Positions 1,127-16,835 of a stretch of DNA of 43,468 bases are shown here, piece after piece (positions within the stretch are counted from its first letter, which is position 1; the number at the start of each line of letters is the position of its first letter). The DNA is from a virus. The notes under the pieces were generated by a model. The model was not told the origin of the DNA and did not search any database. It was given only the letters and a program-made list of their open reading frames with translations. Made by a program: the position numbers and the translations under genes. Location of the stretch: IMG/VR virus record IMGVR_UViG_3300046804_003549, positions 1-43,468 of that record; one strand, given 5' to 3'.

Positions 1127-1224
1127 TTATAGATAAAAGGATCTCGCTTGCGTAATTCTTTTAGCTTTTTGCGATAGCGTATTTCCAGTCGAATTCTAGC
1201 CCAAATTTGTTTAATCCAATTCAT
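1123..1224 (-). CDS. 33-aa basic small protein coupled to carbamoyltransferase
   Basis: This very short gene begins with ATG at 1224 and stops with TGA at 1125-1123. It encodes 33 residues, MNWIKQIWARIRLEIRYRKK followed by LKELRKRDPFIYK. The stop of the 345-aa gene overlaps its start as ATGA, and its own stop overlaps the carbamoyltransferase start as ATGA, so both junctions look translationally coupled. The peptide is strongly basic, with an amphipathic helical N-terminal half and a tail ending in RDPFIYK. From memory, similar tiny proteins ending in DPFIY occur beside carbamoyltransferase genes in marine phages and cyanobacteria, but I cannot check that here. A role as partner or membrane anchor of the carbamoyltransferase is inference. 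Confidence 0.7.
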   Translation of the reverse strand: MNWIKQIWARIRLEIRYRKKLKELRKRDPFIYK

Positions 1225-2258
1225 TTTAGTGCCTCAATCTGTTGTTCTGTGTAATCTGGATCGCTCCAGCAGTAGTCATATGTAGCTTCACAATCTGATG
1301 TGCGTATTTTATACACATCCAGCTTAGTGGATAGCTGGCTCCATATTTGTTGATAATCCCCGGTGCCAAATGACCTGGATAAATCAACTTGCCCGACCTT
1401 GGGATGGCCGATTGTGAGAGTTCGGTCATCTGGATCAAATCCATTTGCGAGAAGCCAGGTACGGAATTCAGCCAGCTGTGTGATTTGCCAGTGGTACGCA
1501 CCTGGATCACGGGCCCACTCAATATCAAAGTCTCCAGCGGCTTGAGTCTGCGCTCTAAGGGCCGACGTTGTAAGTTCACTAATACGCGAATCCCGTCCTT
1601 CATCGTTGAAAACTTCCCAATGATGCTTGCCCACCGCTTTATTGACACCAACATATACGCCACCAAGGCTGCGATTAATAGTGTCAATACCAAATAGTTC
1701 ATAATCCGATTCCTCTAATTCAAAACGTGGAGCATTTAGCCAACACATTAATTGGCTAGGCCTGCGCCATTCTGGAGCATCTCGTAATTTACGCATAGAT
1801 AGCACCAGGCTTTCTATTTCGTGACACAGCAAATTAAGTTGTCTAATGTGCCAACGTGTGTAGTTATCTGCGGTTGTGTAGTGTGTACTAATTGCCCCTG
1901 CGGTACCTTGCAGATCTTCAAAATAACGATGCAAACGATTCATTTTATCATGGTTCACGTCAAGATCTGGCTGTATTACCGTGGACGAACTAAAAAATTC
2001 CTGAATGCGATAATCCAACATAGAACTGTTGATTGCATTGACACTGCGATTGACCTGTGTGCAAAGATAATTGATGTCACGAGCACTTTCAGTCCAGCCT
2101 AACCAGCAGTAGTTCTTTTCCAGGTGCAGATTGCGTTTGATGATGTCGTTCAGTGCTGCAAGCCATTTACGGCTGAGACTGTTGTCGTGTACATTGATGT
2201 ATACGTCAAGCAATTCGTCGTTGTTGCCACGCAGTGTAATTGTGATTTCGTCAAGCAA
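1221..2258 (-). CDS. Conserved-looking hypothetical protein, 345 aa (TTG start)
   Basis: I do not recognise a named family. The frame opens at a TTG (2258) preceded by GGTGG seven bases upstream, a reasonable ribosome binding site, and no in-frame ATG lies near. The start overlaps the end of the preceding radical SAM gene by 8 nt. The N-terminus looks like a short beta-rich segment (EITITLRG, DVYINV). The middle is helical, with aromatic and His-rich stretches (NRLHRYFEDLQG around 106-117). The C-terminal part carries GGVYVGVNKAVGKHHWEVF and TLTIGHPKVGQVDL. No signal peptide or membrane segment is visible. It sits between the last radical SAM gene and the carbamoyltransferase pair, so it probably works with one of them. 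Function unknown. Confidence 0.8.
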   Translation of the reverse strand: MLDEITITLRGNNDELLDVYINVHDNSLSRKWLAALNDIIKRNLHLEKNYCWLGWTESARDINYLCTQVNRSVNAINSSMLDYRIQEFFSSSTVIQPDLDVNHDKMNRLHRYFEDLQGTAGAISTHYTTADNYTRWHIRQLNLLCHEIESLVLSMRKLRDAPEWRRPSQLMCWLNAPRFELEESDYELFGIDTINRSLGGVYVGVNKAVGKHHWEVFNDEGRDSRISELTTSALRAQTQAAGDFDIEWARDPGAYHWQITQLAEFRTWLLANGFDPDDRTLTIGHPKVGQVDLSRSFGTGDYQQIWSQLSTKLDVYKIRTSDCEATYDYCWSDPDYTEQQIEALK

Positions 2259-3543
2259 TTTGCATCCACCATTGTAGTACGTCTGAACGTGCGCCCAAGA
2301 TATCTGTCATTGTCACTGGTTGTGTTCGTATGCGTTCTAGTTGTAACACGCGAGACTTGCCTTTTGAGAGTCCCGCACGATATTCGTCGGGCCATTGTTC
2401 TTCAAATGTGGGCCGTTGTTTTAGTTGTAGCAGTACGTCACGCATGGCACCTTGACTACGCCCTGCCAATTCGTCAACCCAAGGGTCCAACAAGTGTCGG
2501 GGCAGTGCCAAAGGACTCATTATAATATCCGGGGAGAATGAAAATACGACCTTGGCCAGCAGTTCCACACCCAGTTCTGCGGCCAGGCAATTCATTGCGT
2601 CCACTTCGGTCATGCCCGGCAGTGTGAGCGTAAAGTCCAGGCGCATCTGTCTGGGATTGGAGGCTATCTTTAATCCCTGTTGGAAATTGTCTAAAAATAG
2701 TGAATAGGATAAACCTGTTCGGATGTATTCTCCTGTGGCGCCGGTTCCGTCGAGGCTGGCGCAGATTTGCCAGTCTCGTATGCGTGATAAAATATCTCGA
2801 TAAAGATTGATACCGCGATGATCAATCCTACTAAGGTTAGTATTATACCTAGCATATAGTTTTCCTCCATCTCCTAATTCAATAATCCGTTGCATGTAAC
2901 GCCAGTGCTGTTCGTACATCAGCGGCTCTCCTCCAACCCAATAGACTTCTTCCACGGTATGTCGTTCCACGGCGGCAGCAAATTCGGCTTCAACTTGATC
3001 CTCTTGAAAATCTTTGATTTGGGAACGTATATCTGCTCGCATCCAATTATTCTTTGGATCATGCCAATTGACCATGTTGTGAGACTTTTCTTCGCTTTCC
3101 CAGGCGCTTGAAAGCATATCTCCGCAGGTTCTGCACTTAAAGTTGCATAGATTTGAAAACCTATAATCCCACGACACAGGATCCATAGTCGTTGAGCCAT
3201 CTGGACTTGTGTTAGCATATACATCGGCGAGTTTGTGCTGAAATAGATGATCGAAGTAGGTCCTGTAGACCGTAGTGTTAAGGAGTTTAGCATTGCATAC
3301 TTCACATTCAGGTAAGGTTTCTCCGGCCATCATTCTACGGCGCACACTTTTCATGTGCTCCGAATTCCAATGTTGTTCTAGTGTGACAGGAATATATCGT
3401 CCGGTGCCCGATGATGTGTCTATATACTGCTCAAAGTTCTGTGCAGGTTCACGGCTAGCACAGCACATTCGTCGTTCGGTTTGCGGGCTAAGATATGTGT
3501 GTGTCCAAGGTGCTAAACACATTGTATCAGGCTTGTTCATCAT
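2251..3543 (-). CDS. Twitch-domain radical SAM protein 1
   Basis: The protein is about 430 aa when started at the tandem ATG ATG (3543/3540); the frame is open further upstream to 3630, but that would run about 100 nt into the SGNH gene. Numbering from the second Met, the N-terminal auxiliary-cluster (twitch) region has C8-LAPW, the pair C26-C27, and C79/C82 after RRRMMAGETLPE. The radical SAM cluster motif CNFKCRTC is at 132-139 and supplies the SAM-binding [4Fe-4S] cluster, and a GGEPLM motif follows. This is the layout of N-terminal-twitch radical SAM proteins, which are found in aquatic phages. The reaction is unknown; relatives with twitch or SPASM domains often modify peptides or sugars. 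It overlaps the SGNH gene upstream and the 345-aa gene downstream. Confidence 0.9.
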   Translation of the reverse strand: MMNKPDTMCLAPWTHTYLSPQTERRMCCASREPAQNFEQYIDTSSGTGRYIPVTLEQHWNSEHMKSVRRRMMAGETLPECEVCNAKLLNTTVYRTYFDHLFQHKLADVYANTSPDGSTTMDPVSWDYRFSNLCNFKCRTCGDMLSSAWESEEKSHNMVNWHDPKNNWMRADIRSQIKDFQEDQVEAEFAAAVERHTVEEVYWVGGEPLMYEQHWRYMQRIIELGDGGKLYARYNTNLSRIDHRGINLYRDILSRIRDWQICASLDGTGATGEYIRTGLSYSLFLDNFQQGLKIASNPRQMRLDFTLTLPGMTEVDAMNCLAAELGVELLAKVVFSFSPDIIMSPLALPRHLLDPWVDELAGRSQGAMRDVLLQLKQRPTFEEQWPDEYRAGLSKGKSRVLQLERIRTQPVTMTDILGARSDVLQWWMQIA

Positions 3544-4057
3544 GTTTTTTTCTAAATATTTCCGCAACCCACCCATGCCACTCGGGGCTGTAATGATGTC
3601 CCAATTTCGAAAGAGGCCAACGATCAGCATGATCTATATAAGGTATTAAATCATACAGCGTCATTTCTATTAATTTTATATTGTGCTCCTGGCACATGGT
3701 TTGAATTTTTAATTGTTGAATTGCAAAATTATCCTGGAGCCACTGATCTGTTGCTTGCTCCATAAAATGAATTCTGTCTGGGTGATTGGGTAAACTTTGC
3801 TTGTATTCATTACCGACTTGATATTCAAATCTAGTCCAGTCTGGCCACAGCACGTAGATACAACTTGGGCTGTATTGTTCCACAATGCCGGGTGCTATCC
3901 TAGCAACAAAATCAGCACTAACACCTTCTGCCCCAAAATTCATAGCTCCTAATAAGTAGGACCAAGTTTCGTTGGCTTCCACTCCTGTTCCCCAGGTGTG
4001 ACTGCATCCAAATGCCACAGCGTCACTGTGCTCAATGATATTTCTATGCATATCCAA
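3527..4057 (-). CDS. SGNH/GDSL-hydrolase-like protein, 176 aa
   Basis: The N-terminus carries AVAFGCSHTWGTGVEANETW, resembling block I of SGNH hydrolases as often written in phage members (GCSHT in place of GDS, with Ser as nucleophile). NFGAEGVSADF resembles block II with its Gly/Asn, and the C-terminal HHYSPEWHGWVAEIF resembles block V with a candidate catalytic His. The strand-helix spacing fits the small SGNH fold. Known members are esterases or acyl/acetyl transfer enzymes acting on carbohydrates or lipids, so a deacylation or acyl-transfer step on a glycan would fit the neighbourhood. The gene overlaps the flanking radical SAM genes by about 14 nt at each end. A second in-frame ATG lies two codons into the frame, at 4051. 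The family call is from motif shape only. Confidence 0.7.
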   Translation of the reverse strand: MDMHRNIIEHSDAVAFGCSHTWGTGVEANETWSYLLGAMNFGAEGVSADFVARIAPGIVEQYSPSCIYVLWPDWTRFEYQVGNEYKQSLPNHPDRIHFMEQATDQWLQDNFAIQQLKIQTMCQEHNIKLIEMTLYDLIPYIDHADRWPLSKLGHHYSPEWHGWVAEIFRKKHDEQA

Positions 4058-5249
4058 TTATCGCTGCCCACTCTGGCATTACTTGTGCTAGACTTTGATT
4101 TCTACGTTGATCCAATTGTTTCATAGCTGCCAACATAGCAGCACCATCCGACGATTCCCCACCCTTCATAAAGTCTATAATACGCTGGAACTCGCCTAGA
4201 TATTCTGTGGGCACGGGCACAGTCTTTAAATGTGTTTCTAGCACTGTCTTTACAATATTAGGAAGTCTAGCAATAGAGAAATACCAAATTTCATGTAGTA
4301 TGTTCCAATACACAAAATCAAATGATTCTCGATTGTTATATATCCAAGACGCAACATGATCTATATAATATATGTTAAAGACGTTTACAGTGGTGCAGAT
4401 CTGTAGTTTGATATTATCATAGATTTCTTTTAAGTCGCGGAACTTATCTAAGTTAGCACATACTTCGTCCCACTTAGCGTTAGTGCGTTGGTATTCAAAA
4501 CGACTGCCTAAATCGTCTATAGAGAACGCTATTTCCACAGTTTTAAAGTGGCGCCAAATGTCTTCTGCGTATTCAGGGAATTGGGTTCCATTTGTGTTGT
4601 AGTGTATCTCAACTTGTCCAGCGATACCACGTTGCACAATGCCTGCTAGCATGTCAAAGTGTTCTTGTATTAAAAATGGTTCACCGCCAGTGAATTCAAT
4701 GTAGCGTATATCATTTAAGCACGAATCAATTTGACTCCAGAACTGATCATTTTCCTGGGGCCACTCACCTGCTTTAAGCATTTGATAATGAAATGAATTC
4801 TTTTTGTCTTTAATGAACTTTAGTTCTTCTGCTGCAAATTGACTCGACGACCAGGATCCGCATATACGACATTTTAAATTACAAATGTTGCCCAGCTTTA
4901 GGTCAAGAAACATCAGTGGTTTGGCAGAGTGCGTCCAAACATCGCCCATATTAATATGCTTGAGTCTATCTATTGTATGCATACGCTTAGACGTGCGACC
5001 AGCTGACTCTTCCGACCAACACTTACGACACGTGTCGGGCTTTGCTCCTGCCAAAAACTCTTGCCGTAATTGATACATATATTGTGAGTTTTGAATAGAT
5101 TTAAAGTCAGCGTTTCTTAAATTAAATTTAACGCTGTGGTTATCAGTTATTTCTTCTTCGGCCAAACAGCAAGGGCGCACAGTACCAATAGGCGATGCTT
5201 CTAGACTGATCCAAGGCAGTACACAAAAAGTGGTATTGGGTAAATTCAT
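4044..5249 (-). CDS. Twitch-domain radical SAM protein 2
   Basis: This 401-aa protein has the auxiliary-cluster cysteines at C9 (CVLPW), C27-C28 (RPCC) and C74/C77 (CRKC), then the SAM-cluster motif CNLKCRIC at 123-130, preceded by FLDLKLGN. The SAM-binding FTGGEPFLIQEHF follows in the middle of the TIM-barrel region. The N-terminal placement of the auxiliary cluster, ahead of the barrel, sets these proteins apart from classic C-terminal SPASM enzymes. It shares the ATGA overlap with the upstream radical SAM gene and overlaps the SGNH gene by 14 nt. The C-terminus ends in MPEWAAIIGYA, like the PEL-type ends of its paralogues. Substrate and product cannot be read from the sequence. Confidence 0.92.
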   Translation of the reverse strand: MNLPNTTFCVLPWISLEASPIGTVRPCCLAEEEITDNHSVKFNLRNADFKSIQNSQYMYQLRQEFLAGAKPDTCRKCWSEESAGRTSKRMHTIDRLKHINMGDVWTHSAKPLMFLDLKLGNICNLKCRICGSWSSSQFAAEELKFIKDKKNSFHYQMLKAGEWPQENDQFWSQIDSCLNDIRYIEFTGGEPFLIQEHFDMLAGIVQRGIAGQVEIHYNTNGTQFPEYAEDIWRHFKTVEIAFSIDDLGSRFEYQRTNAKWDEVCANLDKFRDLKEIYDNIKLQICTTVNVFNIYYIDHVASWIYNNRESFDFVYWNILHEIWYFSIARLPNIVKTVLETHLKTVPVPTEYLGEFQRIIDFMKGGESSDGAAMLAAMKQLDQRRNQSLAQVMPEWAAIIGYA

Positions 5250-6493
5250 GTCAAACTCATTGGTTGTTGAGCTAGTGCAAACTGGACTTTGAGGTCCGGA
5301 TACAATTCGTGATCAATGTCATAGACATTGTTGCGGTCAAATTCTGCTTGACTCCACGTGCCCCAATTCCACATCTTTTGCCAATTAATATGATTTATGC
5401 CTAGGTCACGACACAGTGCCACAAACGCTGGAATTTCTCGATAGTTAGCTCTTTGCACCACAAAGTCCGCGATTAGTTTAGTGTTGACACCCATATCTGT
5501 GATAGTTTGACGCAACCAACGTACATTGTCTATCAATTGATTCCATTGGCCATTTATACGTATTTGTTGATAAGTTAACTCTGAGGCAGCATCAAAACTC
5601 ACTCGAATTTCACGTACCGTAGGCAATAAAGCAATTATCAAATCAGATTTTTTCTGAAGATAACTGCCATTGGTTTGTATGATGTGGCTGATGTTGTTTT
5701 TGCCAGTCTGCACAATGTAGTCTAATAAATCTAAATATACGTCACTGATAAACGGTTCGCCACCACACCAACGTATTTCCACTGGCTGTTGTTGTATTTC
5801 ATCAATGATAAGAGTCTTTATGGCGGCCACAATGCGGTCATTTATAGGACGCATGATATGATGGTTATTGTTGTTGATCAATTCAGTTCGACAACTGGGG
5901 CAACGGAAATTACAAGTGTAGTCAAAATCTAAAATAATATTCTTAGGTATTTGATTAAGCAATAGTTCGCTTTTGGTGACCAGTGGCTGTGCTGAAGTTT
6001 TGTCCCCTGATTGCTGATATTCCGTGCGTGGAATACCAGCAAAAAAACTGCAAATACGATTGTTGCAGTAAGTGTAGCGACCAGCTAGAATTTCTTGACG
6101 TATGCTCTGTGCTGTTTCGCTGTTGATTACTTGATATATGCTGTCGCACTGTAACACATTGCCCACAAACAACGGAATCCAACTGGGACTACTGCAAATA
6201 AAAACATCTCCATTGCTGTTCACCCCCAGGGTAGACCAAGCAACCGAACAGGCCTTGCCTGAATATTGTTTATCAAAAAATATTTGACGTTGACGTTGTT
6301 GATTTGCCTGGGCCAATACATCGCCGTGTAGAGTTTGCGCTTCGTAACTTTCCTGCATCATACGCACAAATTCCTGCACTTCTTGTTGTATCACAGGATC
6401 TGTTCCTAGTTCGTTTTGAATCACAGATTCGTAACTAGGCCAATCTGGACCGGCAAAAACTTTGTAATCCTGAAGACTTATGATGTGTTTCAT
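5246..6493 (-). CDS. Radical SAM protein 3, divergent N-terminal auxiliary cluster
   Basis: This 415-aa protein has a helical N-terminal segment of about 80 residues, followed by a SPASM/twitch-like region: C82-SVAW, NSNGDVFIC (C100), then YC (C143) and C148. The SAM-cluster motif CNFRCPSC is at 194-201, and WCGGEPFISDVYLDLLDY carries the SAM-contacting GGEP. The auxiliary-cluster spacing, and the absence of the usual CxxPW and CC pair, make it the most divergent of the seven paralogues. It is joined to both neighbours by ATGA overlaps, so it is translated with radical SAM 2 and 4. NGDVFIC resembles the G-x-V-x-x-C start of SPASM domains in peptide-modifying enzymes. That similarity alone does not prove a peptide substrate. 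Confidence 0.9.
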   Translation of the reverse strand: MKHIISLQDYKVFAGPDWPSYESVIQNELGTDPVIQQEVQEFVRMMQESYEAQTLHGDVLAQANQQRQRQIFFDKQYSGKACSVAWSTLGVNSNGDVFICSSPSWIPLFVGNVLQCDSIYQVINSETAQSIRQEILAGRYTYCNNRICSFFAGIPRTEYQQSGDKTSAQPLVTKSELLLNQIPKNIILDFDYTCNFRCPSCRTELINNNNHHIMRPINDRIVAAIKTLIIDEIQQQPVEIRWCGGEPFISDVYLDLLDYIVQTGKNNISHIIQTNGSYLQKKSDLIIALLPTVREIRVSFDAASELTYQQIRINGQWNQLIDNVRWLRQTITDMGVNTKLIADFVVQRANYREIPAFVALCRDLGINHINWQKMWNWGTWSQAEFDRNNVYDIDHELYPDLKVQFALAQQPMSLT

Positions 6494-8058
6494 AGCAAAG
6501 CTTTCAATTCTGGTATTACGTCTAATAACTTTTCGTTTCTAATAGCATCCAGCTGATTGGTCTTTTCCCAAAACTTAGGAATTAAATGACTACGATCTTC
6601 TTCAAACATAAAATTCACAAGTGCTTGATAACGTGCTATTACAGATTCTGTGCCAGTGTAGTTAGATAACCATTGACAATGAGATTGTATTTTTTCCTTT
6701 ACTATTTCTTTGTAGGCTTTTGTGGCTATATCTACTCTGTAATAGCTAGGCTCTTGTAACCAGTTGAGACTAAAGTTATTTGGATCAATTAAGCCTTTTT
6801 CTACCCAATCCCGGTGGAAGTCCGGCAAATGCCATATATTCAATATGCTAGCTGTTGGCTGTACACTAAAACTTGTGCTCGGGCATTCAGCCATCATTCG
6901 ACGACGATTGTTTTCAATTTCGTCCCAGTTTCTGTCTTTTCTAATATACTCTGCACGTGGTCCTTGAGCGTCTAGGCTCGCGCCCACGGTAACTGACTTG
7001 AACTTTTTCCAGTATTCAAACACAGCGCGAGTTTTTAGCTTGGTCTGAGTAAAGTTTGTGTTATAAAATAATTCTACATCAAATCGTTGCAGTTTTTCTA
7101 ACTCTTCTAAGATACGATACTGCTCTTCCATGACCAATGGTTCCCCACCAGCAAAATAAATCCGTTCTACATGACCAAGATGCGGTTGTATTTGTTCCCA
7201 CATATCTGTGTCTGTTTTGCCCGATTTCATAATCACTGGTTTGTTGTACGAAGGGTCAAGTTTTATTTCATCTTGATACCATTTTGAACTAGAATGATGA
7301 TTGCAGGTTCTACAGCGTATGTTACATAGATTAGTAAATCTCATGTCGAGATATAACAACTTAAAATCATCAACTTGTTTGTTTTGTTTAATTTGGGGGA
7401 TTTTATCTTTGAACCTGTGATTCAATGATATACGTGTTGAACGATTGCCGTTGCGTTCTTGCTCATAGCACTTTTCGCAATTGGTATGATAGCTGTTATT
7501 CAACAGCGTAGTCCTAATCTCTTTTAAAGAATCACTAGTCCAGGCATCTTTCAGCGTGATCTCATTGAGATATCCCAGTGTGTCAGTTCCCAAGCAACAA
7601 GTCTTGATTTCATGATAGGGAGTAACCATTAGATGTATCCAGGGTGCAACACAGAATGTATCTCTGTTGTCTAATAGAGCACTGCTAGCACCGCTGTAGT
7701 ATTCAATCTTGGGCAGCACAGGATCTGAGCTGTATTTCTTAAAGTATTGTTCAACAGTTCCTACTTCGCCGTTGACCAAGATAACTGCAAAAAAGTTACT
7801 TACGTCTACTTTATTCAATATTTTTATAAATTTCTTAAAGAAAATTTCAAACGACAGCTTATCGTAATCATTGGTATCAAATATAAAGACTATGCGCTCA
7901 TTATTGTTGAATGTTTCCTTTCTTACAGAGGAAAGCTGATTTTTAAATTCATCCCATGCTATTATCAATTTAGCCGGAGTCCAGCCAGCTAAAGAAATAG
8001 TATCTAGTACTACAAAATTCTCTTTTTGATATTCGACTAATTCTTCTATTGTTTTCAT
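6490..8058 (-). CDS. Twitch-domain radical SAM protein 4 with extra N-terminal domain
   Basis: At 522 aa this is the longest of the set. Residues 1 to about 130 form an extra N-terminal domain that I do not recognise; hydrophobic strands (RIVFIFDTND at 55-64, FFAVILVNGE at 89-98) alternate with helices, suggesting an alpha/beta fold. The standard layout follows: C136 (CVAPW), C154-C155, C194/C197, SAM motif CNIRCRTC at 245-252 and FAGGEPLVMEEQY. From the auxiliary cluster to the end it is a close paralogue of the next radical SAM protein. Both finish with an almost identical FWEKTNQLDAIRNE segment. Its coding strand is visibly richer in A and T (many Lys, Asn, Ile) than its neighbours. ATGA overlaps join it to radical SAM genes 3 and 5. 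Confidence 0.92.
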   Translation of the reverse strand: MKTIEELVEYQKENFVVLDTISLAGWTPAKLIIAWDEFKNQLSSVRKETFNNNERIVFIFDTNDYDKLSFEIFFKKFIKILNKVDVSNFFAVILVNGEVGTVEQYFKKYSSDPVLPKIEYYSGASSALLDNRDTFCVAPWIHLMVTPYHEIKTCCLGTDTLGYLNEITLKDAWTSDSLKEIRTTLLNNSYHTNCEKCYEQERNGNRSTRISLNHRFKDKIPQIKQNKQVDDFKLLYLDMRFTNLCNIRCRTCNHHSSSKWYQDEIKLDPSYNKPVIMKSGKTDTDMWEQIQPHLGHVERIYFAGGEPLVMEEQYRILEELEKLQRFDVELFYNTNFTQTKLKTRAVFEYWKKFKSVTVGASLDAQGPRAEYIRKDRNWDEIENNRRRMMAECPSTSFSVQPTASILNIWHLPDFHRDWVEKGLIDPNNFSLNWLQEPSYYRVDIATKAYKEIVKEKIQSHCQWLSNYTGTESVIARYQALVNFMFEEDRSHLIPKFWEKTNQLDAIRNEKLLDVIPELKALL

Positions 8059-9314
8059 TTTAGAATTCCTAGCTCGGGTATTACTGCTAATAGACTTTCA
8101 TTTCTGATTGCATCTAGTTGATTGGTCTTTTCCCAGAACGTAGGAATCAAATGGCTGTTGTCTGTAGCGTTCATAAACTGTACAGCAGATTCAAAGCCTT
8201 GTGTGGCTCTGTTTAACGGATCCTTGTCACGTAGCCATTGAATATGATTTAGATAGCGTGTGCTTAGTTCTTCTTTGTATTCTGTAGTAGCAATGTCTAT
8301 ACGGTAGTGTGGAGGATCTTGTAGTATGTTTACGTTTAAATCCTGTGGGCGGATCAGTCCCATTTCTACCCATGTGCGATGAAATAAAGGCAAATGCTTG
8401 GCATTCATAATGCTCAGTGTAGGACTAATATAAAAGTCTACTTCTGGGCACACACGCTGCATTTCTACTCTATTAGCGTGTACTTGACGCCAATCTGTGC
8501 CTTTTCTGATGTACTCTGCTCTGGCATCCATAGCGTCAAGACTGGCACCCACAGCCACACTGTCAAACTGTTTCCAATATTCAAAAACACTTCGTCCTTT
8601 TAAATCAGTGTGCGTGAAGTTTGTGTTGTAGATCAGTCTAACATCTGTGCGCCCACGATTTACTAGCTCTTCAAGAATGTTATAGTGTTCTTCCATGAGC
8701 AAAGGCTCGCCGCCAGCAAAGTAAATCTGTTCCACATAATCCAGGTGTGGCTCTAGCTGTTCCCACATATCCGTTTCGGTACGGCCAGCATAGTTTAGCA
8801 CTGAGTTTTGTTCTCGCCAATGATCTCCGGCCAACTTTACTTGATCCTGATACCATTGCGAACTAAAGATATGCCCGCAACTGCGACAGCGCAGGTTGCA
8901 TAGGTTAGAGAAGCGAATGTCCCAGTACGTTAATTCAAATGGATTTGATTCCAACTTCTTTATGTGATGCCCATGATGCTTGTTAGCACTCTTTCTACCC
9001 GAAAAGAAACCACTCTCTTCTTGCTCATAACAACGTTTGCATGCGGAATTGGGTGTTTCACTCAGCATGTCTGCACGTAGCATATTCATTGGTTCACCGT
9101 GCCAAATCTCCTCCAAGGTCTGTGTACGACAATTGCCCACTACACCAGGCTTCATCTCTGCGTGACAGCAGGGATAGGCTTCGCCTGTGGGATAAGCATG
9201 TATGTGTATCCAAGGGTAGATGCAGAAGGTCCGAGAATCCTTTAATAAGAACTCCTCACGTTCAGTGAGCTCTGTAGGCCGTACCAAATCTGTGGAATTG
9301 TAATTATATGTCAT
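8055..9314 (-). CDS. Twitch-domain radical SAM protein 5
   Basis: This 419-aa protein has C31 (CIYPW), C49-C50, C92/C95 (CKRC), the SAM-cluster motif CNLRCRSC at 139-146 and FAGGEPLLMEEHYNILEEL. The aligned blocks YFAGGEPL, VGASLDA, RAEYIRK and FWEKTNQLDAIRNE are shared with radical SAM 4, so the two look like a tandem duplication in which 4 gained or 5 lost the N-terminal domain. The end overlaps the start of radical SAM 4 as ATGA, and the start overlaps the end of radical SAM 6 by 11 nt. The conserved VGASLDA and EYIRK segments lie in the barrel after GGEP and occur in most members of this set. Reaction unknown. Confidence 0.92.
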   Translation of the reverse strand: MTYNYNSTDLVRPTELTEREEFLLKDSRTFCIYPWIHIHAYPTGEAYPCCHAEMKPGVVGNCRTQTLEEIWHGEPMNMLRADMLSETPNSACKRCYEQEESGFFSGRKSANKHHGHHIKKLESNPFELTYWDIRFSNLCNLRCRSCGHIFSSQWYQDQVKLAGDHWREQNSVLNYAGRTETDMWEQLEPHLDYVEQIYFAGGEPLLMEEHYNILEELVNRGRTDVRLIYNTNFTHTDLKGRSVFEYWKQFDSVAVGASLDAMDARAEYIRKGTDWRQVHANRVEMQRVCPEVDFYISPTLSIMNAKHLPLFHRTWVEMGLIRPQDLNVNILQDPPHYRIDIATTEYKEELSTRYLNHIQWLRDKDPLNRATQGFESAVQFMNATDNSHLIPTFWEKTNQLDAIRNESLLAVIPELGILK

Positions 9315-10644
9315 TTAATGAATTATACCATTGTGCCAATTCGGGAAATGTTGCAACAAAATCTTTTCCACGACGCTGATCATATTGAGCGTAAAATTTA
9401 TAGAAATCATTTTTCAGCGCAGGCAAGTCAAATGCTTCCGAGTGCGGAGTCTTGACCACATCCAAGTAGTCGATCAGGCGTAGCACATGATTGATTTCGT
9501 GTTCTTGCAAATAAGAATAACCTTTATGCCGCACAACAAAGTCTACCAGGCGATCACGTGCGGCTGTGCGCAGTGTGTCGGGCAAGACAAGTGGTGATTG
9601 GAAGCTGGGGAAGCGCAAGATATTCAATGTGAAAGAGATCGCTTCGCGTCCGTATTCCAGTTTCCAATTAACAATACAATCCAGCAGTTTGTCCAGGCTG
9701 TCTAAGCACAGGGCGTTAATGGTACACATGACATGTATGCCACGCAATTTGCCGGAGTCTAATAGCCGTTCTACATTGTTGACCCAGTCGTCCCACACAA
9801 GTCCGTCACGAATATATTCTGCCTGCAGGCCAATGGCTTCGTTTGATGTGTATAAGTCAATGTCTAGGCCTTCTGTGGAGGCCAGCAAACGATCGATGTC
9901 CACTTCAGTTCCAAGATTACTGTTAATAGCCAAGCGTGTAGTACTGCGGCCCCGATTATCCCGGAACCAGTCAATGAGCCGCCAGGTGTGACCGGACATG
10001 AGGGGCTCTCCTCCCGTGATTCTAAGTTCCTGTAGACTATGATGTAAATCCGACTCCCACCATGCAAAAAATGCATCAATATAGGGATTGATTTCTGTAA
10101 TCCGGAAGGGCTGAGCAGATTCATGACTGTGAGTATAATGATTGCGACCATCGGATTCAAGGTGTTGATAAGGTCCGTTGCGTCGAATATCATTAGCCCA
10201 TGTTGTAGAGAAAGCAGGGTTGCAATAGCTGCAAGCAAACTGACAGGTACGATCGAAAGCAATTTCCAGTGTTCGTAGGTTAACGTCCGAATCGGCGGGT
10301 GTATTTCTAGCTTCATGCAAGGCCTCTATGGGGTAGATTTTTGATTTGTAAACACGATCACTTACAGCGTCGCGGCCCATGTCTTCAATTTTCCAGCAGT
10401 ATTCACAACCTGGGGGTCGTTCGCCTGCCAGCATCATTTTACGGTCCGCTTTCTTTTGGTCAGTGTTGTGCAGTAACCCTGGGTTGGCGCGAACTCGATC
10501 ACGATCCACCTGATGGGCCGGGGGATGATGGCAACTTGTGGTCATCCCACTACCTAACCAAATGGTAGCATTGTACCATTTGGCCGCACAAAAACTGTCG
10601 CTGATTTTATCCAAGACTTCTTGGCGAAATTCTAGATCGTTCAT
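9304..10644 (-). CDS. Twitch-domain radical SAM protein 6 (CxAKW/HPP subtype)
   Basis: This 446-aa protein belongs to a second subtype. In place of CxxPW and CC it has C19-AAKW and SCHHPPAH (C38), then C80/C83 (CEYCW), still giving four cysteines for an auxiliary iron-sulfur cluster. The SAM-cluster motif is CQFACSYC at 134-141, followed by ITGGEPLMSGHTW. The C-terminal DFYKFYAQYDQRRGKDF matches that of radical SAM 7, so the two are paralogues separated by a glycosyltransferase-like gene. The start codon at 10644 lies 38 nt inside that upstream gene. No later Met precedes C19, so this overlap appears real. Substrate unknown. Confidence 0.91.
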   Translation of the reverse strand: MNDLEFRQEVLDKISDSFCAAKWYNATIWLGSGMTTSCHHPPAHQVDRDRVRANPGLLHNTDQKKADRKMMLAGERPPGCEYCWKIEDMGRDAVSDRVYKSKIYPIEALHEARNTPADSDVNLRTLEIAFDRTCQFACSYCNPAFSTTWANDIRRNGPYQHLESDGRNHYTHSHESAQPFRITEINPYIDAFFAWWESDLHHSLQELRITGGEPLMSGHTWRLIDWFRDNRGRSTTRLAINSNLGTEVDIDRLLASTEGLDIDLYTSNEAIGLQAEYIRDGLVWDDWVNNVERLLDSGKLRGIHVMCTINALCLDSLDKLLDCIVNWKLEYGREAISFTLNILRFPSFQSPLVLPDTLRTAARDRLVDFVVRHKGYSYLQEHEINHVLRLIDYLDVVKTPHSEAFDLPALKNDFYKFYAQYDQRRGKDFVATFPELAQWYNSLNDI

Positions 10645-11698
10645 TGATAAATTGAAAAAAGCGGTCGGGAAATTCTTGGCGAACTTTTACAGCCATTTCC
10701 TTGTGATGTTGCTGATTGTATTTACTTACATTGTAACACTCTTTTAAGAAAGTCACAAGGTCTTGCTGGCATAAGTCATGCACAATCTCAGCAATACGAT
10801 CTAACCGATCTTGATTGTTGTCTATCAAATCGAAGCTTTCGTCTATTAGGTGACTGTAGGTTTGAAACCCTAGGTTGTGCATGTCTCGATAAAATCCGCG
10901 ATTGGCCACTGCTATCCAAGGATGCCCCATAACAATGGGTTTCCAGATCTTTTCTGTGCGGAAACTGTAGGGCATCTCAAACACAGTTTCTGTAACCAAA
11001 CTAAAATAGCTATCAATGTATGGTTTGGGATATAGATATATTTCTCCCCACTCATTTTTAAACAAGTCAAATTTGACATATCTGTGATCCGATACAGGAT
11101 TGCTGGTATCTTGATAGCGAGGTACTTCATATTGTGACGGCAACGTGCGTGACAGCCCAGGGCCTGCGTCCAAATCAGTCCACAGTGCCGAATCTAATAT
11201 GTCTTTTAATTTATTAATTAAATCTCTTCTGTGTCGTCGTTGACGGCCATTCAAAAAAAGAAATTTATATGGCTTGTGTTCTTTGGTGTATATCTGATCT
11301 GATTGTGCTTGTGCCTGTAAATTTTCTTTGTAGTCCAGGATTTCTGGCAAAAACTTGTCGTATTGCAAACAAAGCCAATCAGGCGGCATATCTCCCCCGC
11401 CTATGACTAATATTTTGTGGCTCTGGGCCAGATCCAACAAACCTAAATGTGTTAGTTGTTTAACCAATGTAGCGGACCCTTCGTGCGGGTTACTCATTAC
11501 TACTTGCACAATTCCAGATTCGGCCATGTTTCTCACACGTTCGCGATTGTCTATGTACTGTTTGCGTCCTATCACATACACAGCACCAGGTACAGTGTTG
11601 TGCTGATTCAGGTCCCAGAACTCATCATGAGCATGGGATCTCAGCATGGGATAGACTTCGCTGAATGTGTCCAGTACGAGTTTAGCTGTGCTTGGCAT
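10607..11698 (-). CDS. Putative glycosyltransferase (exostosin/GT10-like C-terminal part)
   Basis: This 363-aa protein has KFLFLNGRQRRHR at 145-157 and, at 238-290, a stretch with TVFEMPYSFRTEKIWKP, GHPWIAV, LGFQTY and DESFD. This arrangement (a Ser/Thr-Glu-Lys segment in which a charged TEK precedes a hydrophobic HP-F/W strand, then a GF-x-TF and DESYD segment) recurs in exostosin- and fucosyltransferase-like proteins of aquatic phages, where it forms the nucleotide-sugar-binding half of a GT-B fold. No membrane segment is visible. It lies between radical SAM 7 and radical SAM 6 and overlaps both (17 and 38 nt), so it is made with them. A donor sugar cannot be predicted. The call rests on motif pattern and context. 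Confidence 0.62.
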   Translation of the reverse strand: MPSTAKLVLDTFSEVYPMLRSHAHDEFWDLNQHNTVPGAVYVIGRKQYIDNRERVRNMAESGIVQVVMSNPHEGSATLVKQLTHLGLLDLAQSHKILVIGGGDMPPDWLCLQYDKFLPEILDYKENLQAQAQSDQIYTKEHKPYKFLFLNGRQRRHRRDLINKLKDILDSALWTDLDAGPGLSRTLPSQYEVPRYQDTSNPVSDHRYVKFDLFKNEWGEIYLYPKPYIDSYFSLVTETVFEMPYSFRTEKIWKPIVMGHPWIAVANRGFYRDMHNLGFQTYSHLIDESFDLIDNNQDRLDRIAEIVHDLCQQDLVTFLKECYNVSKYNQQHHKEMAVKVRQEFPDRFFQFINERSRISPRSLG

Positions 11699-13073
11699 GA
11701 TACTCGCACTGTTTCCAGAAAGCAGTCATTTCTGGAAACACTAGATTAAAATCTGTGCCTCTGCGTCGGTCATGCTCACTGAAGAAACGATAAAAGTCGG
11801 CACGTCGTTGTGCCAGGATCTTGGGATCTATACTTTGTCCTTCACGCATCCAGGCAATGTCTCGGTCCAGTCTTGAAATTTCATAGTCTTTGAACACATG
11901 CATGGGATCAGGATTGACATCGTGTCTGCAAGGATTCAGCATCCAGGCCCACACAGTTTCCAACTGATCCGCATAGCTTTCCGGCAGTATCTGCAGGCTT
12001 TGCCATCCTGGTTGTCGTAGCACAGGTGTATCAAACCAAACTCGTTGATAGGTTTTGCTATACAGTCTGCGCAGTCCCAGTATGCCCGAAAACAAATGAC
12101 CCAGAGTTGTAACGCTGAGATTGTTCATGGTCACAATAAAAGTAATGCTGGAATATCCAGGAATCTCAGTCAAGAATTGATTGACTCTGTCCCACAACAA
12201 ATCGAAGTCCAGACCGTGGCGAATGTATTCTGCTTGCGGCCCCCAACCATCCAAGCTCACATACTGCATGAAATGTTCAATGCGTCCATCGCAAATGCGT
12301 TTGATTTTGTCCAAATAATTTTGCCAAAGTTTTTCGTCTACTGAAAAATTGCTTGTGACATTCAAATGCAAATGTGGACTGGGGTTTTTGATCACATAGT
12401 CTAACACACGATGTGTGTTGCGATCCATCAGTGGCTCACCCCCGGTCATTCTAAAGTGACGTAGCTGTGGGTAAAGCGTGGGCCACCACTGCCAAAATGC
12501 TTCCACATACGGATTGTGATCCTTTACCGGAATAGGGCGATTGCGTCCGGTAAAATGACTAGGATCGTTATGAACACGACCAGTCGGGTAGCCGCCCCAT
12601 CGATCCACCTCGGCCTGCCAGGTTGAACTAAATTGAGGGCTACAATAACTGCAACTGAGGTTGCAAGCGTGATTAAAATTAACTTCGACGTAACTAGGGA
12701 CAACATCCTCATCTCCTGTTGAGTTTTTAATTTTTTCAAAGTCCACAGCGGCCCAGGGTTCGCCCGATCTATAGTGTCGGTCCGACATCTTGCCAAGATC
12801 CTCCATGTTCCAACAATATTGACACTCCGACGGGCGCTCATTGCGTAACATAATCCTACGCTGTTCTTTTTTGTATGCAGTGTTATGCAGACCTGCAGAA
12901 TTATCGGCTATGTCAGACAATTCAATTTTATGCAAGGGAGGATGATAACAACTGTTGGTCTGTCCTGTGGTCAAATGCAGGCTTACTTGCTGCCATTTGG
13001 CTAGGCAGAGTGCAGGACCCAAGTTGTCCTTCATAAACTCTGCACTGGCCATAAAATCACTTTTTGTTAACAT
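11682..13073 (-). CDS. Twitch-domain radical SAM protein 7 (CxAKW/HPP subtype)
   Basis: This 463-aa protein carries C23-LAKW, SCYHPPLH (C42), C84/C87 (CQYCW), the SAM-cluster motif CNLSCSYC at 137-144 and MTGGEPLMDRNTH. YVSLDGWGPQAEYIRHGLDFD later in the barrel matches the SLDA...EYIR block of the other paralogues. It is closest to radical SAM 6, with which it shares the HPP-containing auxiliary region and the C-terminal DFYRFFSEHDRRRGTDF. It is the first radical SAM gene of the operon in transcription order and overlaps the sulfotransferase-like gene by 17 nt. The segment after the SAM motif is rich in Trp, Tyr and Pro, as in radical SAM 6. Function unknown. Confidence 0.91.
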   Translation of the reverse strand: MLTKSDFMASAEFMKDNLGPALCLAKWQQVSLHLTTGQTNSCYHPPLHKIELSDIADNSAGLHNTAYKKEQRRIMLRNERPSECQYCWNMEDLGKMSDRHYRSGEPWAAVDFEKIKNSTGDEDVVPSYVEVNFNHACNLSCSYCSPQFSSTWQAEVDRWGGYPTGRVHNDPSHFTGRNRPIPVKDHNPYVEAFWQWWPTLYPQLRHFRMTGGEPLMDRNTHRVLDYVIKNPSPHLHLNVTSNFSVDEKLWQNYLDKIKRICDGRIEHFMQYVSLDGWGPQAEYIRHGLDFDLLWDRVNQFLTEIPGYSSITFIVTMNNLSVTTLGHLFSGILGLRRLYSKTYQRVWFDTPVLRQPGWQSLQILPESYADQLETVWAWMLNPCRHDVNPDPMHVFKDYEISRLDRDIAWMREGQSIDPKILAQRRADFYRFFSEHDRRRGTDFNLVFPEMTAFWKQCEYHAKHS

Positions 13074-13701
13074 TTGGTACCGTTTGGGTCAAGTATTCAC
13101 TAATCTCTCTATGGTTAACAAACAAATCTTCTAGCGTCAGACCATAGTTGTTTGGGCTCCAATTGATGGTTGTTCCTGCTATGTGTTTAAGTTCGTCATA
13201 GTCTAAGCTTACATCAGTTTGAAATAAATTTACAATGTGATGCTCAAGTAGCCAACCTCCAATGATGTTGATATCAAAATCTACACGTTTGTCTATGTGT
13301 TTGAAATGTGCGTATTGTTGAGGATTGCCGCCATGGTGCGGCAAATTAGTAGAGTTAAATCGCTGCTCTAGTGTATTAGAATATTTCCAGAGATAATCAG
13401 ATATCCAATGATCTACTTTGTTTTTTCGAGTTAGTTGAACCGTGTGCCATTGTGCAAACTGTTCTTGATTGCCTACAAGATATATTTTAGGCACTACAGA
13501 ATTAAGAATCGCAATGGCATAACTGTTATATGTGGCAGTCAAGAATTGCGTATCGCTTACTTCGTCGAGATTTCTAACCGGCTTAGTTTTGCGTATATGT
13601 GCCAGTAGATTATTAGAAAGAAAATGGGTACCAGCTCGATAATTTGAGATTATTACTGTGCCAATTTTATTTGCATTCCAAAAATTGTTAATATTTGTCA
13701 T
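13057..13701 (-). CDS. Putative sulfotransferase-like protein, 214 aa
   Basis: The N-terminus contains GTVIISNYRAGTHFLSNNLL, a strand followed by a basic Ser/Gly-Thr loop and a helix. It resembles the 5'-phosphosulfate-binding loop (PRSGSTFL type) of PAPS-dependent sulfotransferases. The rest is mixed alpha/beta, with VVPKIYLVGNQEQFAQWHTV resembling the strand that positions the acceptor, and a C-terminal segment LTLEDLFVNHREISEYL. At 214 aa it is short for the family but within the range of phage versions. A sulfate donor step would fit an operon full of glycosyltransferases and a carbamoyltransferase. It might instead be another P-loop-like transferase, because a clear 3'-phosphate-binding motif is not evident. 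It overlaps radical SAM 7 by 17 nt. Confidence 0.5.
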   Translation of the reverse strand: MTNINNFWNANKIGTVIISNYRAGTHFLSNNLLAHIRKTKPVRNLDEVSDTQFLTATYNSYAIAILNSVVPKIYLVGNQEQFAQWHTVQLTRKNKVDHWISDYLWKYSNTLEQRFNSTNLPHHGGNPQQYAHFKHIDKRVDFDINIIGGWLLEHHIVNLFQTDVSLDYDELKHIAGTTINWSPNNYGLTLEDLFVNHREISEYLTQTVPNVNKK

Positions 13702-13705
13702 TATG

Positions 13706-14602
13706 TTATTCCCTTGACATTATATCTTTATTTTTAAACTGACTCATATAGTGACGTTTGAAAAATGCTGATTGTTCATTTTCTAAAATAATCATTGGCA
13801 AATCTAGCTGTGAGTTTAATTCTGTGGCAATACGATTGGCAACCAATCTTGGTTGATCATTTTCCACAGTTTTAAATAACTCTGCTAACACATCAAAGTC
13901 CTGCACCTGTGTGTGATCCCACTGTGTAAGCATGGTCATATATGTGCCCATGCGAGATCCGGCAATGGCCCATTCGCCGTATTCTACATCTGCACCTACA
14001 TTGTGCCAGATAGTTAAGTTATCCAAGTTTTTGCTGTGTACACGACTCTGAAATTCACTAACCGATGGCTTTCGCCCCCGGTCCAAGCACATTTTGACGC
14101 CTTCACGGAATCCAGCACGCCAGGCATGAAATGCTGATCCATTGGGATATGTAGTAGAAAAACAATCATGCATGGCCCAATACAGGGGATCAAAGCAAAA
14201 CTCCACTTGAGTTTCTGTTCTACCATCTGAGGCTTCATGAGTTTGCATATAATATGCAAACTCCTTGGTCCAACTAGATAAACCACCGTTGCCATACATC
14301 AGTCCATTGATATGGTTACGTGCCCGCCAGCGAAACACAGCCTTGCTATATTCTTCATCAGGAAGAACAAGCGTTTGATTAAAAAACGTTGGATCGGGGA
14401 GATTGTCTCCGTCGATAAGAATAAATCTATCCGTATCTGAAGCATCGGCTGCTGCTTTATGTGCAGCATCGCTGCCCTTAACGCCATCCACCCGTTGGGC
14501 CCAAGGCACCATGTTCTTAATCTTAACCCAAAATTCTTCACGACGTGGTTCGTCATATGTTAGATAAATGCAGTCCAAGTCTGCGATGTCAATTTGTTTC
14601 AT
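13706..14602 (-). CDS. Glycosyltransferase-like protein with DGDN motif, 298 aa
   Basis: The start is placed at ATG 14602, which has GGAG about 12 bases upstream; the frame is open to 14722, but that extension would overlie the preceding gene. The N-terminus reads LDCIYLTYDEPR, then VPWAQRVDGVKGSDAAHKAA and RFILIDGDNLPD (Asp64, Asp66). This fits a GT-A fold with a DxD-type metal and nucleotide-sugar site. HINGLMYGNGGLSSW and MQTHEASDGRTETQVEFCFD follow. From memory this YDEP...GVKGxxAAHKAAA...DGDN family is common in cyanophages and their hosts, often unannotated. It overlaps the 115-aa gene upstream by 14 nt and ends 4 nt before the sulfotransferase-like gene. Donor and acceptor unknown. Confidence 0.72.
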   Translation of the reverse strand: MKQIDIADLDCIYLTYDEPRREEFWVKIKNMVPWAQRVDGVKGSDAAHKAAADASDTDRFILIDGDNLPDPTFFNQTLVLPDEEYSKAVFRWRARNHINGLMYGNGGLSSWTKEFAYYMQTHEASDGRTETQVEFCFDPLYWAMHDCFSTTYPNGSAFHAWRAGFREGVKMCLDRGRKPSVSEFQSRVHSKNLDNLTIWHNVGADVEYGEWAIAGSRMGTYMTMLTQWDHTQVQDFDVLAELFKTVENDQPRLVANRIATELNSQLDLPMIILENEQSAFFKRHYMSQFKNKDIMSRE

Positions 14603-14936
14603 TTGTTTTTGTTCTCCAATATTGATGCTCATCATCCACAGCAACAACAATGCTAACATCCTGAGGATGACATGGTGTTCCTGTGGTGCTGGGCTGCAAT
14701 TTTTTGACAGGATTTGTGGCAAGTTCTACCAGCTGACCGTTGCGAATCCGCACACGCATACTGGCCCGTTGATACTGCTCAGGTGTTACATCAATGTAAT
14801 TACCTGGTCTGTCCTCTTGAGTGTAAAACAATGGAAAGCCTTGTTCATCATAATGCAGTCTCCAAAATATCACAGGAGGTTGATAAGGTTCCAAGTTGTT
14901 CCAAACTTGCCAAAAGTTTTCAGTGGTTTCATTCAT
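14589..14936 (-). CDS. Conserved phage-type hypothetical protein, 115 aa
   Basis: The likely start is ATG 14936 (MNETTENFW); an upstream in-frame ATG at 14954 adds six residues but lies deeper in the preceding gene. The protein contains VIFWRLHYDEQGFPLFYTQE, DRPGNYIDVTPEQY, a MRVRIRNGQLVEL strand pair, then GTPCHPQDVSIVV near the end. This order resembles small uncharacterised proteins I recall from aquatic T4-like phages, but no function is known to me. There is no signal peptide or membrane segment. It overlaps the glycosyltransferase genes on both sides (8 and 14 nt), so it is co-translated with them and may be an accessory subunit. That is inference. Confidence 0.75.
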   Translation of the reverse strand: MNETTENFWQVWNNLEPYQPPVIFWRLHYDEQGFPLFYTQEDRPGNYIDVTPEQYQRASMRVRIRNGQLVELATNPVKKLQPSTTGTPCHPQDVSIVVAVDDEHQYWRTKTNETN

Positions 14937-15705
14937 GGTACCAGTCCTTGACATTTAAGTGCACAAATCCCCATTGGGCCACTGTCTGGATACGCATAGG
15001 GTTGTATTCCCAAACCAATTCATCTGTCCAACGTCGTGCTGTGTAAGGGTTTATTCCCGGCTTCATGTGAACTATTTGCGGGCCAAATCCTCTAGGTAAT
15101 GTTACTTGTTCAGGTCCTAAGATTTGTGCTGACATGGCGTACACCACATCTGTGGACGGCACGTCTTCGGGAAACTTTAACAATGTTTTATATTCGTCCC
15201 AATTTTCAAATATTTTACGGACCAAAGCAAAGAAGTCTTGTGCAGTTTTGCTTAGACGCCAGTATGTTACAGCATTGTAAACGTCAGGTAGATGGTTGTT
15301 GTCAAATAGATGTCGATACTTTCTACTGGTTGCTGTTTGATTGTAAAATGTTCTGCAACCTTGGCTGATCACCACATCTCGATGCTCAAACATAGTCCAC
15401 CAATGATCTACCGCAGATGCAACTATCATATCAGCTTCTAGCTTGATAGTTTGTCTAAAAGGTGATTGATGAAACACCAACCAATCATTGGCAAAAGGAT
15501 TGTGTTTGTTGATGTCTTCTACTACATGTGTGTATGCAAATAGTGTGGCATCAGCTGCCCAGGGTTGGTTAGTCAGCAAACATATGCGAGCAGCAGGGTG
15601 CTGCATCAGCAGTGTTTTGGCAAGATTCCTTGCACAATCTACATAATCAATGTTGTTGACATTGAATGCAGGAATAATGTAACCACGTTCTTCAATGGGC
15701 GTCAA
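14929..15705 (-). CDS. GT-A-like glycosyltransferase paralogue B, 258 aa
   Basis: The start is RGYIIPAFNVNNIDYVDCARN, then a Rossmann-like ICLLTN strand and PFRQTIKLEADMIV, where Glu90-x-Asp92 lies in the DxD position of a GT-A nucleotide-sugar site. VYNAVTYWRLSKTAQDFFALV and NWDEYK follow. The same blocks in the same order occur in the next upstream gene (ALVFAFNNEKIDYVKMA, QTLVLDSDYVV, MMFRKSPTAQYIF, NWQHYREL), so the two are diverged tandem copies. The first acidic residue is Glu rather than Asp here, which may alter metal use. It overlaps its paralogue by 14 nt and the 115-aa gene by 8 nt. The sugar is not predictable. Confidence 0.7.
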   Translation of the reverse strand: MTPIEERGYIIPAFNVNNIDYVDCARNLAKTLLMQHPAARICLLTNQPWAADATLFAYTHVVEDINKHNPFANDWLVFHQSPFRQTIKLEADMIVASAVDHWWTMFEHRDVVISQGCRTFYNQTATSRKYRHLFDNNHLPDVYNAVTYWRLSKTAQDFFALVRKIFENWDEYKTLLKFPEDVPSTDVVYAMSAQILGPEQVTLPRGFGPQIVHMKPGINPYTARRWTDELVWEYNPMRIQTVAQWGFVHLNVKDWYHE

Positions 15706-16498
15706 TTACTGCCTCCAGGTGACTTTTGCCCATGGCATGAAAATCTTGCCCAAACAGTCCAATAGACTTGAGTTTGTGGTCTATGTCTTTGAACTTTATG
15801 TTCCAAACTTCAGGATCAATAGATATTCTTGACAGTTCTGAGTCAGGAAGCACATTACACATAGACCAAGGTATAGCATCAACTTTGAGAGTATGTCCAC
15901 TAACGATACCCAACGCAATACTTAACGCATAATCGTTGCGATAATTGCGTTCTGCTATGCTGTAGAGTTCTCTGTAGTGCTGCCAATTATTTTTTATCAT
16001 AGTCATTGACTCAAAAATATATTGAGCGGTAGGACTCTTGCGAAACATCATCACTGTGGCCCACCACATGGGAAAATTGTTACGACCAAAAGTGTTTAAA
16101 AATTCTTGATCTGGCCGGGCAACGTCAATGGCATTGCGATGTGCCAAAAAATCCTGCGGTGAATTCAGGACCTGTTGCAATTGTGTGCCACATACCACAT
16201 AATCAGAATCAAGTACAAGAGTTTGATCATAAGGACTCAACCGATATGCCTCTGTTCTTGCAGCATTGTGCCAAGACACAGTATCATTGTAATCCTCAAA
16301 GTATCGATAACCCCCAGTTTGTGCATCGATATATATGACATGATCAAATTGTTGAGCTAATGCAGGATCTGTAGAATCTGTAACAACTGAAACTGGGATG
16401 TAGAGCCAGTGCCTAATGCGTTCAGCACTCCAAGATGCCATCTTAACATAATCAATTTTTTCATTGTTGAAAGCAAATACAAGTGCACCAGTAGTCAT
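15692..16498 (-). CDS. GT-A-like glycosyltransferase paralogue A, 268 aa
   Basis: This 268-aa protein opens with ALVFAFNNEKIDYVKMASWS, continues with a Rossmann-like PVSVVTDS strand, and has QTLVLDSDYVV with Asp97-x-Asp99, a typical DxD of GT-A glycosyltransferases. MWWATVMMFRKSPTAQYIFE and NWQHYREL resemble acceptor-side helices of this group. It is a tandem paralogue of the following gene. Its ATG overlaps the stop of the 101-aa gene as ATGA. It is the first glycosyltransferase of the accessory operon. A role in attaching a sugar to a surface glycan or a virion protein is inference from the DxD motif and the neighbours. Confidence 0.73.
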   Translation of the reverse strand: MTTGALVFAFNNEKIDYVKMASWSAERIRHWLYIPVSVVTDSTDPALAQQFDHVIYIDAQTGGYRYFEDYNDTVSWHNAARTEAYRLSPYDQTLVLDSDYVVCGTQLQQVLNSPQDFLAHRNAIDVARPDQEFLNTFGRNNFPMWWATVMMFRKSPTAQYIFESMTMIKNNWQHYRELYSIAERNYRNDYALSIALGIVSGHTLKVDAIPWSMCNVLPDSELSRISIDPEVWNIKFKDIDHKLKSIGLFGQDFHAMGKSHLEAVIDAH

Positions 16499-16806: not shown

Positions 16807-16835
16807 AGTATAAATGAATTACAGATAAAAGTAAA
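16807..16835 (-). promoter_or_regulatory. Possible sigma70-type promoter for the accessory operon
   Basis: On the minus strand TTTACT (16835-16830) and TATACT (16812-16807) are separated by 17 bases, a spacing and match (4/6 and 5/6) compatible with a bacterial sigma70 promoter. The box lies directly behind the terminator and directly before the 101-aa gene, so the transcript would have almost no leader, consistent with the missing ribosome binding site. It could be chance in an AT-rich gap. Confidence 0.35.

Follow-up and report, generated by a model that had tools for sequence, protein, structure and literature searches.

A constant radical SAM and carbamoyltransferase operon behind the tail genes of a jumbo phage lineage, a possible glycan-tailoring pathway

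What does a virus build with seven radical S-adenosylmethionine (SAM) enzymes encoded in one operon behind its tail genes? This question is raised by the IMG/VR virus record IMGVR_UViG_3300046804_003549, a complete single contig of 43,468 bases that was analysed here at its full length (hereafter the window). A first-pass annotation of this DNA had described an overlapping operon at 2251-16498. The overlap was borne out (adjoining frames share 4-38 nt, with a longer nominal overlap between rS7 and the SGNH-like gene), while the extent was not, as the operon really runs from the start of o101 (16800) through unk into the carbamoyltransferase gene; likewise, the main genes had been listed correctly, while the conserved gene u121 had been missed. 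We find a conserved gene order, intact in nearly all relatives and tied to the tail module, and we tentatively read the operon as a pathway for a virion or host-surface glycan with radical SAM-tailored, carbamoylated sugars, the most likely acceptor being the phage's own tail-fibre region. The genes, from first to last, are:

16495-16800, minus strand: o101, first operon gene, encoding a conserved small protein without known function (54/54 tail-seeded loci)
15692-16498, minus strand: gt1, glycosyltransferase-like, core, paralogue of gt2; invariant DxD (D97/D99); no Pfam or PDB name
14929-15705, minus strand: gt2, glycosyltransferase-like, core; invariant E90 and D92; phrog_1903
14589-14954, minus strand: u121, core; conserved small protein without known function, flanked by gt2 and gt3 in 68/68 loci having both
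13706-14602, minus strand: gt3, putative GT-A-like enzyme, core; invariant DGD; start probably 14602 rather than 14722, from the alignment of relatives
13057-13701, minus strand: sulfotransferase-like P-loop protein, accessory; motif only; G+C 0.361
11682-13073, minus strand: rS1, core N-twitch radical SAM; NF033640 310.7 bits; seven Fe-S Cys in 100% of 79
10607-11698, minus strand: gtX, putative glycosyltransferase, core; motif TEK..KP..G.P; no Pfam, PHROG or PDB name
9304-10644, minus strand: rS2, core N-twitch radical SAM; NF033640 293.1 bits
8055-9314, minus strand: rS3, core N-twitch radical SAM, the most conserved; NF033640 384.1 bits
6490-8058, minus strand: rS4, N-twitch radical SAM, accessory; N-terminally extended sister of rS3; G+C 0.369
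5246-6493, minus strand: rS5, accessory divergent radical SAM/SPASM-like; NF033640 103.6 bits, below cutoff
4044-5249, minus strand: rS6, core N-twitch radical SAM; NF033640 338 bits
3527-4057, minus strand: SGNH-hydrolase-like protein, accessory; motif only
2251-3630, minus strand: rS7, core N-twitch radical SAM; NF033640 279.2 bits; true start may be near 3543
1221-2258, minus strand: unk, conserved protein, core; fold and function unknown; model predicted local distance difference test (pLDDT) 78
2-1126, minus strand: carbamoyltransferase (NodU/TobZ-type), core; truncated at base 2, where it meets the edge of the window, ~493 amino acids in relatives

All seven complete radical SAM proteins reported in the first-pass annotation were confirmed as open reading frames, and CxxxCxxC and GGEP are present in 7/7 of them (translations and alignment). 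Six (rS1, rS2, rS3, rS4, rS6 and rS7) score 279-384 bits against the N_Twi_rSAM model NF033640, above its curated cutoff of 170 bits, and rS5 falls short of it. Among relatives, CxxxCxxC is found in 428/428 radical SAM proteins, and the four N-terminal Cys (C...C...CxxC) together with the three core Fe-S Cys are kept in ~100% of the 73-81 orthologues of each core family, the N-terminal four reaching 100% in each. The core proteins do, then, carry predicted Twitch/SPASM auxiliary cluster ligands, as the annotation had proposed from their N-terminal regions; and where it had named loss of Fe-S ligands in most relatives as an argument against a functional pathway, we find the ligands in ~100% of about 80. 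In every core family, one or more additional Cys C-terminal to CxxxCxxC are also invariant. Known radical SAM epimerases use a Cys as hydrogen donor, and the extra residue could, as a lead only, serve as a hydrogen-atom donor here. In a quick tree, rS1, rS2, rS3, rS6 and rS7 are each recovered as a single supported clade (SH-like approximate likelihood ratio test 98-100), with rS4 as a paralogue of rS3. The median ratio of nonsynonymous to synonymous substitution rates is 0.07-0.11 for the core radical SAM genes and 0.19 for the tail gene fib; the operon is a real feature under purifying selection.

The gene order is conserved as strictly as the enzymes. A search with rS3 returned 188 IMG/VR relatives, the best 80 of which were examined and contain ~59 distinct rS3 proteins (<98% identity). 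In 63/65 contigs that cover the stretch from gt3 to the carbamoyltransferase, the order of the conserved genes is collinear, and all that sets the other two apart is one more rS2-like gene at the end; the random gene set in relatives that the annotation would have taken as evidence against a pathway is not what we see. The core order is o101-gt1-gt2-u121-gt3-rS1-gtX-rS2-rS3-rS6-rS7-unk-carbamoyltransferase. Every spanning locus encodes five to eight radical SAM proteins, and five (rS1, rS2, rS3, rS6 and rS7) belong to the core, so that the number seven holds for this window, where rS4, rS5 and the sulfotransferase-like and SGNH-like genes are accessory, and the conserved number is five. Two further scans started from non-radical SAM genes and each comprised the best 80 matches, which samples the nearer part of the lineage. 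Seeded with unk, they place rS7 immediately upstream in 72/72 loci and the carbamoyltransferase downstream in 72/72; seeded with a 201-aa tail gene, and counting loci with at least 8 kb downstream, they recover o101, gt1, gt2, u121 and gt3 in 54/54 loci and rS1 in 52. The suggestion that a conserved biosynthetic system accompanies the tail module is well supported.

The gap between fib and o101 holds a GC-rich hairpin with a T-rich tail, then a -10-like box just before o101. By pattern match, a similar hairpin is found in 33/45 relatives, and CCTRTANMAT, a -10-like pattern, lies near the o101 start in 22/45; the operon appears to form its own transcription unit. A T4-type late promoter, TATAAATA, has one match in the window, no more than expected by chance. 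The features at this boundary are:

16833-16852, minus strand: terminator-like hairpin between fib (last tail gene) and the operon
16812-16807, minus strand: promoter-like -10 box TATACT, 6 nt ahead of the o101 start
16871-17848, minus strand: fib, tail protein rich in Ser/Thr (32%), homologous to PA5oct gp360
17862-19151, minus strand: pepG2, tail protein bearing a Peptidase_G2 domain, homologous to PA5oct gp359

Judged from its sequence, the window represents part of the genome of an uncultured jumbo myophage, distant kin of Pseudomonas phage PA5oct; among named phages no near relatives at the DNA level were found. Its baseplate hub shares 35% identity with that of PA5oct group jumbo phages over about half of the hub length, and its tail order (baseplate wedge, giant protein, 201-aa protein, pepG2, fib) is that of PA5oct gp354/355/357/359/360, four of which were confirmed by direct comparison. 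In the PA5oct record, tail proteins including the homologues of fib and pepG2 are flagged as detected by electrospray ionisation tandem mass spectrometry. No radical SAM operon follows gp360 in that record, and the N_Twi model finds a single weak match, under the cutoff, in the whole of it, so that the operon appears to be a gain specific to this lineage, placed after its last tail gene. The contigs of relatives reach 353 kb and hold 7-19 N_Twi matches each, the weakest of which are probably generic radical SAM proteins. In two of these genomes (the L083 contig, G011, 320 kb, and the L028 contig, G004, 353 kb), with up to 19 N-twitch matches per genome, many of the matches lie outside the main operon, a load unusually high for a virus. 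The giant protein of the window is a virion structural protein of 4,710 amino acids (19984-34116, phrog_10938), and its position matches that of the giant protein in the PA5oct tail module.

The carbamoyltransferase that the annotation had placed at the operon end was confirmed by matches to Carbam_trans_N (6.8e-36), Carbam_trans_C (2.6e-11) and phrog_1601 (1.7e-49), with its C-terminus cut by the window edge. For the sulfotransferase-like and SGNH-like proteins, the reading frames reported earlier are present and their names follow motif resemblance, but a family match is not found (no Pfam or PHROG match for the former; no Pfam, PHROG or NCBIfam match for the latter), and no PDB profile names either of them. 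The sulfotransferase-like gene and rS4 have the lowest G+C. The model of unk has no PDB fold match, and its relatives are uncharacterised phage proteins only. Among cellular genome contigs, unk has three matches (L108, L109 and L110), all in contigs binned into metagenome-assembled genomes (Pacearchaeota, TMED46 and Rickettsiales); these contigs lack the core operon and at least two of them carry phage-like genes, and the matches are therefore probably misbinned phage sequence. In L109, TctA/TctC-like transporter genes follow unk.

Between the core genes lie variable slots in fixed places, chiefly after gt3 and after rS6; in relatives they contain 281 cargo genes, which fall into 63 clusters. 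According to Pfam, this cargo includes GDP-mannose dehydratase/epimerase families, UDP-glucose/GDP-mannose dehydrogenase, GHMP kinase, DegT aminotransferase and hexapeptide transferase, as well as methyltransferases, AMP-ligase, TctC receptor and GDSL lipase. A trio recurs after gt3, comprising a TctC-type periplasmic receptor, an AMP-binding ligase and an SGNH-like protein (L073:2494-3414, L011:3411-4496, L009:4493-5203). Next after the carbamoyltransferase, a convergent amidinotransferase gene is found in 51/57 relatives with enough sequence; its C-terminal part matches L-arginine:glycine amidinotransferase (AGAT) and inosamine-phosphate amidinotransferase, and gtX-like genes usually adjoin it. 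A second amidinotransferase gene occurs elsewhere in genomes of the lineage (L099:17835-19007, the same as G004:207835-209007; loci L194-L264), in some cases with radical SAM or gtX neighbours. Predicted membrane proteins are almost absent from core and cargo, as judged by hydropathy only.

How does this operon compare with phage modules already described? The first-pass annotation knew of no described phage pathway combining so many radical SAM enzymes with tailoring transferases, a point that needs correction, as clusters of many radical SAM genes have a precedent in phages: the Campylobacter phages CP220 and CPt10 (Firehammervirus), published in 2010, encode 11 and 12, and each has a module of five with an amidinotransferase (PMC2853527). 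As in the operon described here, these genes form one module downstream of baseplate genes, and the CP220 module also has two proteins with nucleotide-diphospho-sugar-transferase domains. The CP220 amidinotransferase is homologous to the operon-side one of our relatives (22% identity, E 4e-8), whose copy lies on the opposite strand. However, the radical SAM families are distinct, those of CP220 being short (~250-340 aa) and matching NF033640 over the radical SAM core only, below cutoff, and the CP220 module, which its authors describe as interchangeable and probably non-essential, has no carbamoyltransferase annotated within it (PMC2853527). Pelagimyophages, which are aquatic myophages, similarly have glycosyltransferases and radical SAM genes around tail-fibre genes, but their host-recognition cluster is hypervariable with radical SAM genes as optional cassettes (PMC7029224), whereas here five are invariant and in fixed order. 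The part of the source on jumbo cyanophages (e.g., S-SSM6a) that we draw on describes glycosyltransferase clusters and a second sugar/amino-acid-modification cluster with carbamoyltransferases, proposes polysaccharide decoration or a metabolite, and mentions 2-oxoglutarate oxygenases and a halogenase rather than radical SAM, in clusters that are sporadic and polymorphic (PMC7824862). Vibrio phage K566 (L088:27901-37362) interleaves N-twitch radical SAM genes (two above the NF033640 cutoff and three below) with GT8 and GT4-like genes; identity is ~24%, the order differs, and no carbamoyltransferase was found among the ten K566 proteins scanned. Viral scans seeded with rS4 and with K566 gave no matches. 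K566 is a possible laboratory model. Searches of openly licensed PMC full text turned up no account of the operon of this lineage. CP220 and CPt10 are the nearest described case, pelagimyophages and jumbo cyanophages share parts, and the operon belongs, as a variant, with the known phage glyco/radical SAM modules near tail genes.

What, then, would such an operon make? We propose that the phage would take nucleotide-sugars from its host, which some relatives may remodel through a slot epimerase, dehydratase or kinase, and that the soluble glycosyltransferase-like proteins gt1-gt3 and gtX would assemble a short glycan. The five core N-twitch enzymes would then perform successive C-H chemistry on this glycan (epimerisation, oxidation, deoxygenation or cross-linking), a role suggested by their enzyme class, and hydroxyl or amine groups would be capped by the carbamoyltransferase and, in relatives, also by the amidinotransferase. 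The sugar cargo, carbamoyl and amidino transfer and the DxD-type proteins together point to a glycan or sugar product, and the swappable nucleotide-sugar genes favour one over the plain peptide that the first-pass annotation had offered alongside fibre and host glycans, although sequence does not separate virion glycan, host glycan and peptide. The near-absence of predicted membrane proteins and the unvarying position of the operon after the tail genes suggest a cytoplasmic acceptor, for example an unassembled tail protein. The most likely acceptor would be the tail-fibre region (fib/pepG2), the product of the neighbouring operon, with fib itself a possible target and a host surface glycan a close second.

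Several points weigh against this proposal. We infer the substrate, the order of steps and the acceptor. The four glycosyltransferase-like proteins do have the motifs on which that name was based, those of DxD type being invariant among relatives in gt1-gt3, but no family or structure match was obtained: for gt1, gt2, gt3 and gtX, neither Pfam, function-named PHROGs nor PDB gave a match, the gt3 structure model is of low confidence with no significant PDB match, and the label therefore rests on DxD-type motifs. The predicted terminator and promoter-like box separate the operon from the tail genes, so that the two may not be co-expressed, and the amidinotransferase lies beyond the window on the opposite strand. 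Peptides are also substrates of auxiliary-cluster radical SAM enzymes, slot epimerases could equally serve host surface sugars, and presence of the operon in the whole lineage could reflect common descent alone. A more specific form of the proposal, which we consider credible but doubtful, is that the five paralogous radical SAM enzymes of the 13-gene core act sequentially to yield a new carbamoylated, probably guanidinylated tail-fibre sugar, with the cassettes setting each phage's glycan type.

Four other explanations were weighed, in decreasing plausibility a host-surface glycan, peptide maturation, a small molecule and DNA modification. The same sugar chemistry might alter the lipopolysaccharide or capsule glycan of the host during infection, for superinfection exclusion or receptor release, which we regard as unlikely though a serious contender. 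The glycosyltransferase and carbamoyltransferase clusters of jumbo cyanophages are so interpreted in the part of the source drawn on here (PMC7824862), as are the glycosyltransferases of the pelagimyophage host-recognition cluster (PMC7029224), and cassette swapping in the slots is like that of O-antigen loci; yet predicted membrane proteins are so scarce in core and cargo that there is no sign of a flippase, polymerase or ligase, and the operon is found in every tail-seeded locus tested, unlike the cyanophage clusters described as sporadic in that part of the source (PMC7824862). It is improbable that the radical SAM enzymes are instead maturases, introducing epimerisation or cross-links into a virion or small operon protein (o101, u121 or fib) to which sugars are added later. 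SPASM/twitch families often are peptide maturases, with weak cross-matches in NCBIfam to sactipeptide, cyclophane and other maturases, the small proteins o101 and u121 are never missing, and the extra invariant Cys of each core family fits a hydrogen-atom donor; against this, o101 and u121 show no recognisable precursor-like features, and the cargo is chiefly sugar metabolism, in which no protease, exporter or leader-peptide genes were recognised.

Quite improbable, in our estimate, is a diffusible aminoglycoside- or nucleoside-like product acting on the host or on rivals. Radical SAM enzymes, amidinotransferase, carbamoyltransferase and sugar epimerases do resemble an aminocyclitol-antibiotic toolkit, PDB relatives include inosamine-phosphate amidinotransferase, BtrN and cytosylglucuronate decarboxylase, and a secondary-metabolite cluster is proposed for a cyanophage in the part of the source already mentioned (PMC7824862). 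However, no exporter or self-resistance genes were recognised, and the constant linkage to tail genes would be left unexplained. Some DNA modifications involve NodU-type carbamoyltransferases and glycosyltransferases, and the operon might by that analogy serve hypermodification with carbamoylated or glycosylated bases. This is very improbable: a gene of thymidylate-synthase fold (hydroxymethylase-type) is absent from seven relatives of 286-353 kb in a search with positive controls, while an empty Tet/JBP search lacked a positive control and is uninformative.

The glycan pathway proposed here lends itself to experiment, as each of its five parallel enzyme families has dozens of distinct orthologues and a named Vibrio phage has related radical SAM and GT8 genes. 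If the proposal is true, it would give a function to the large unassigned N_Twi_rSAM family and would bring radical chemistry to phage glycans, in a locus of constant core and variable cassettes comparable to O-antigen loci. Part of the seemingly accessory metabolism of this very common lineage of giant phages would then be a core virion- or surface-modifying pathway.

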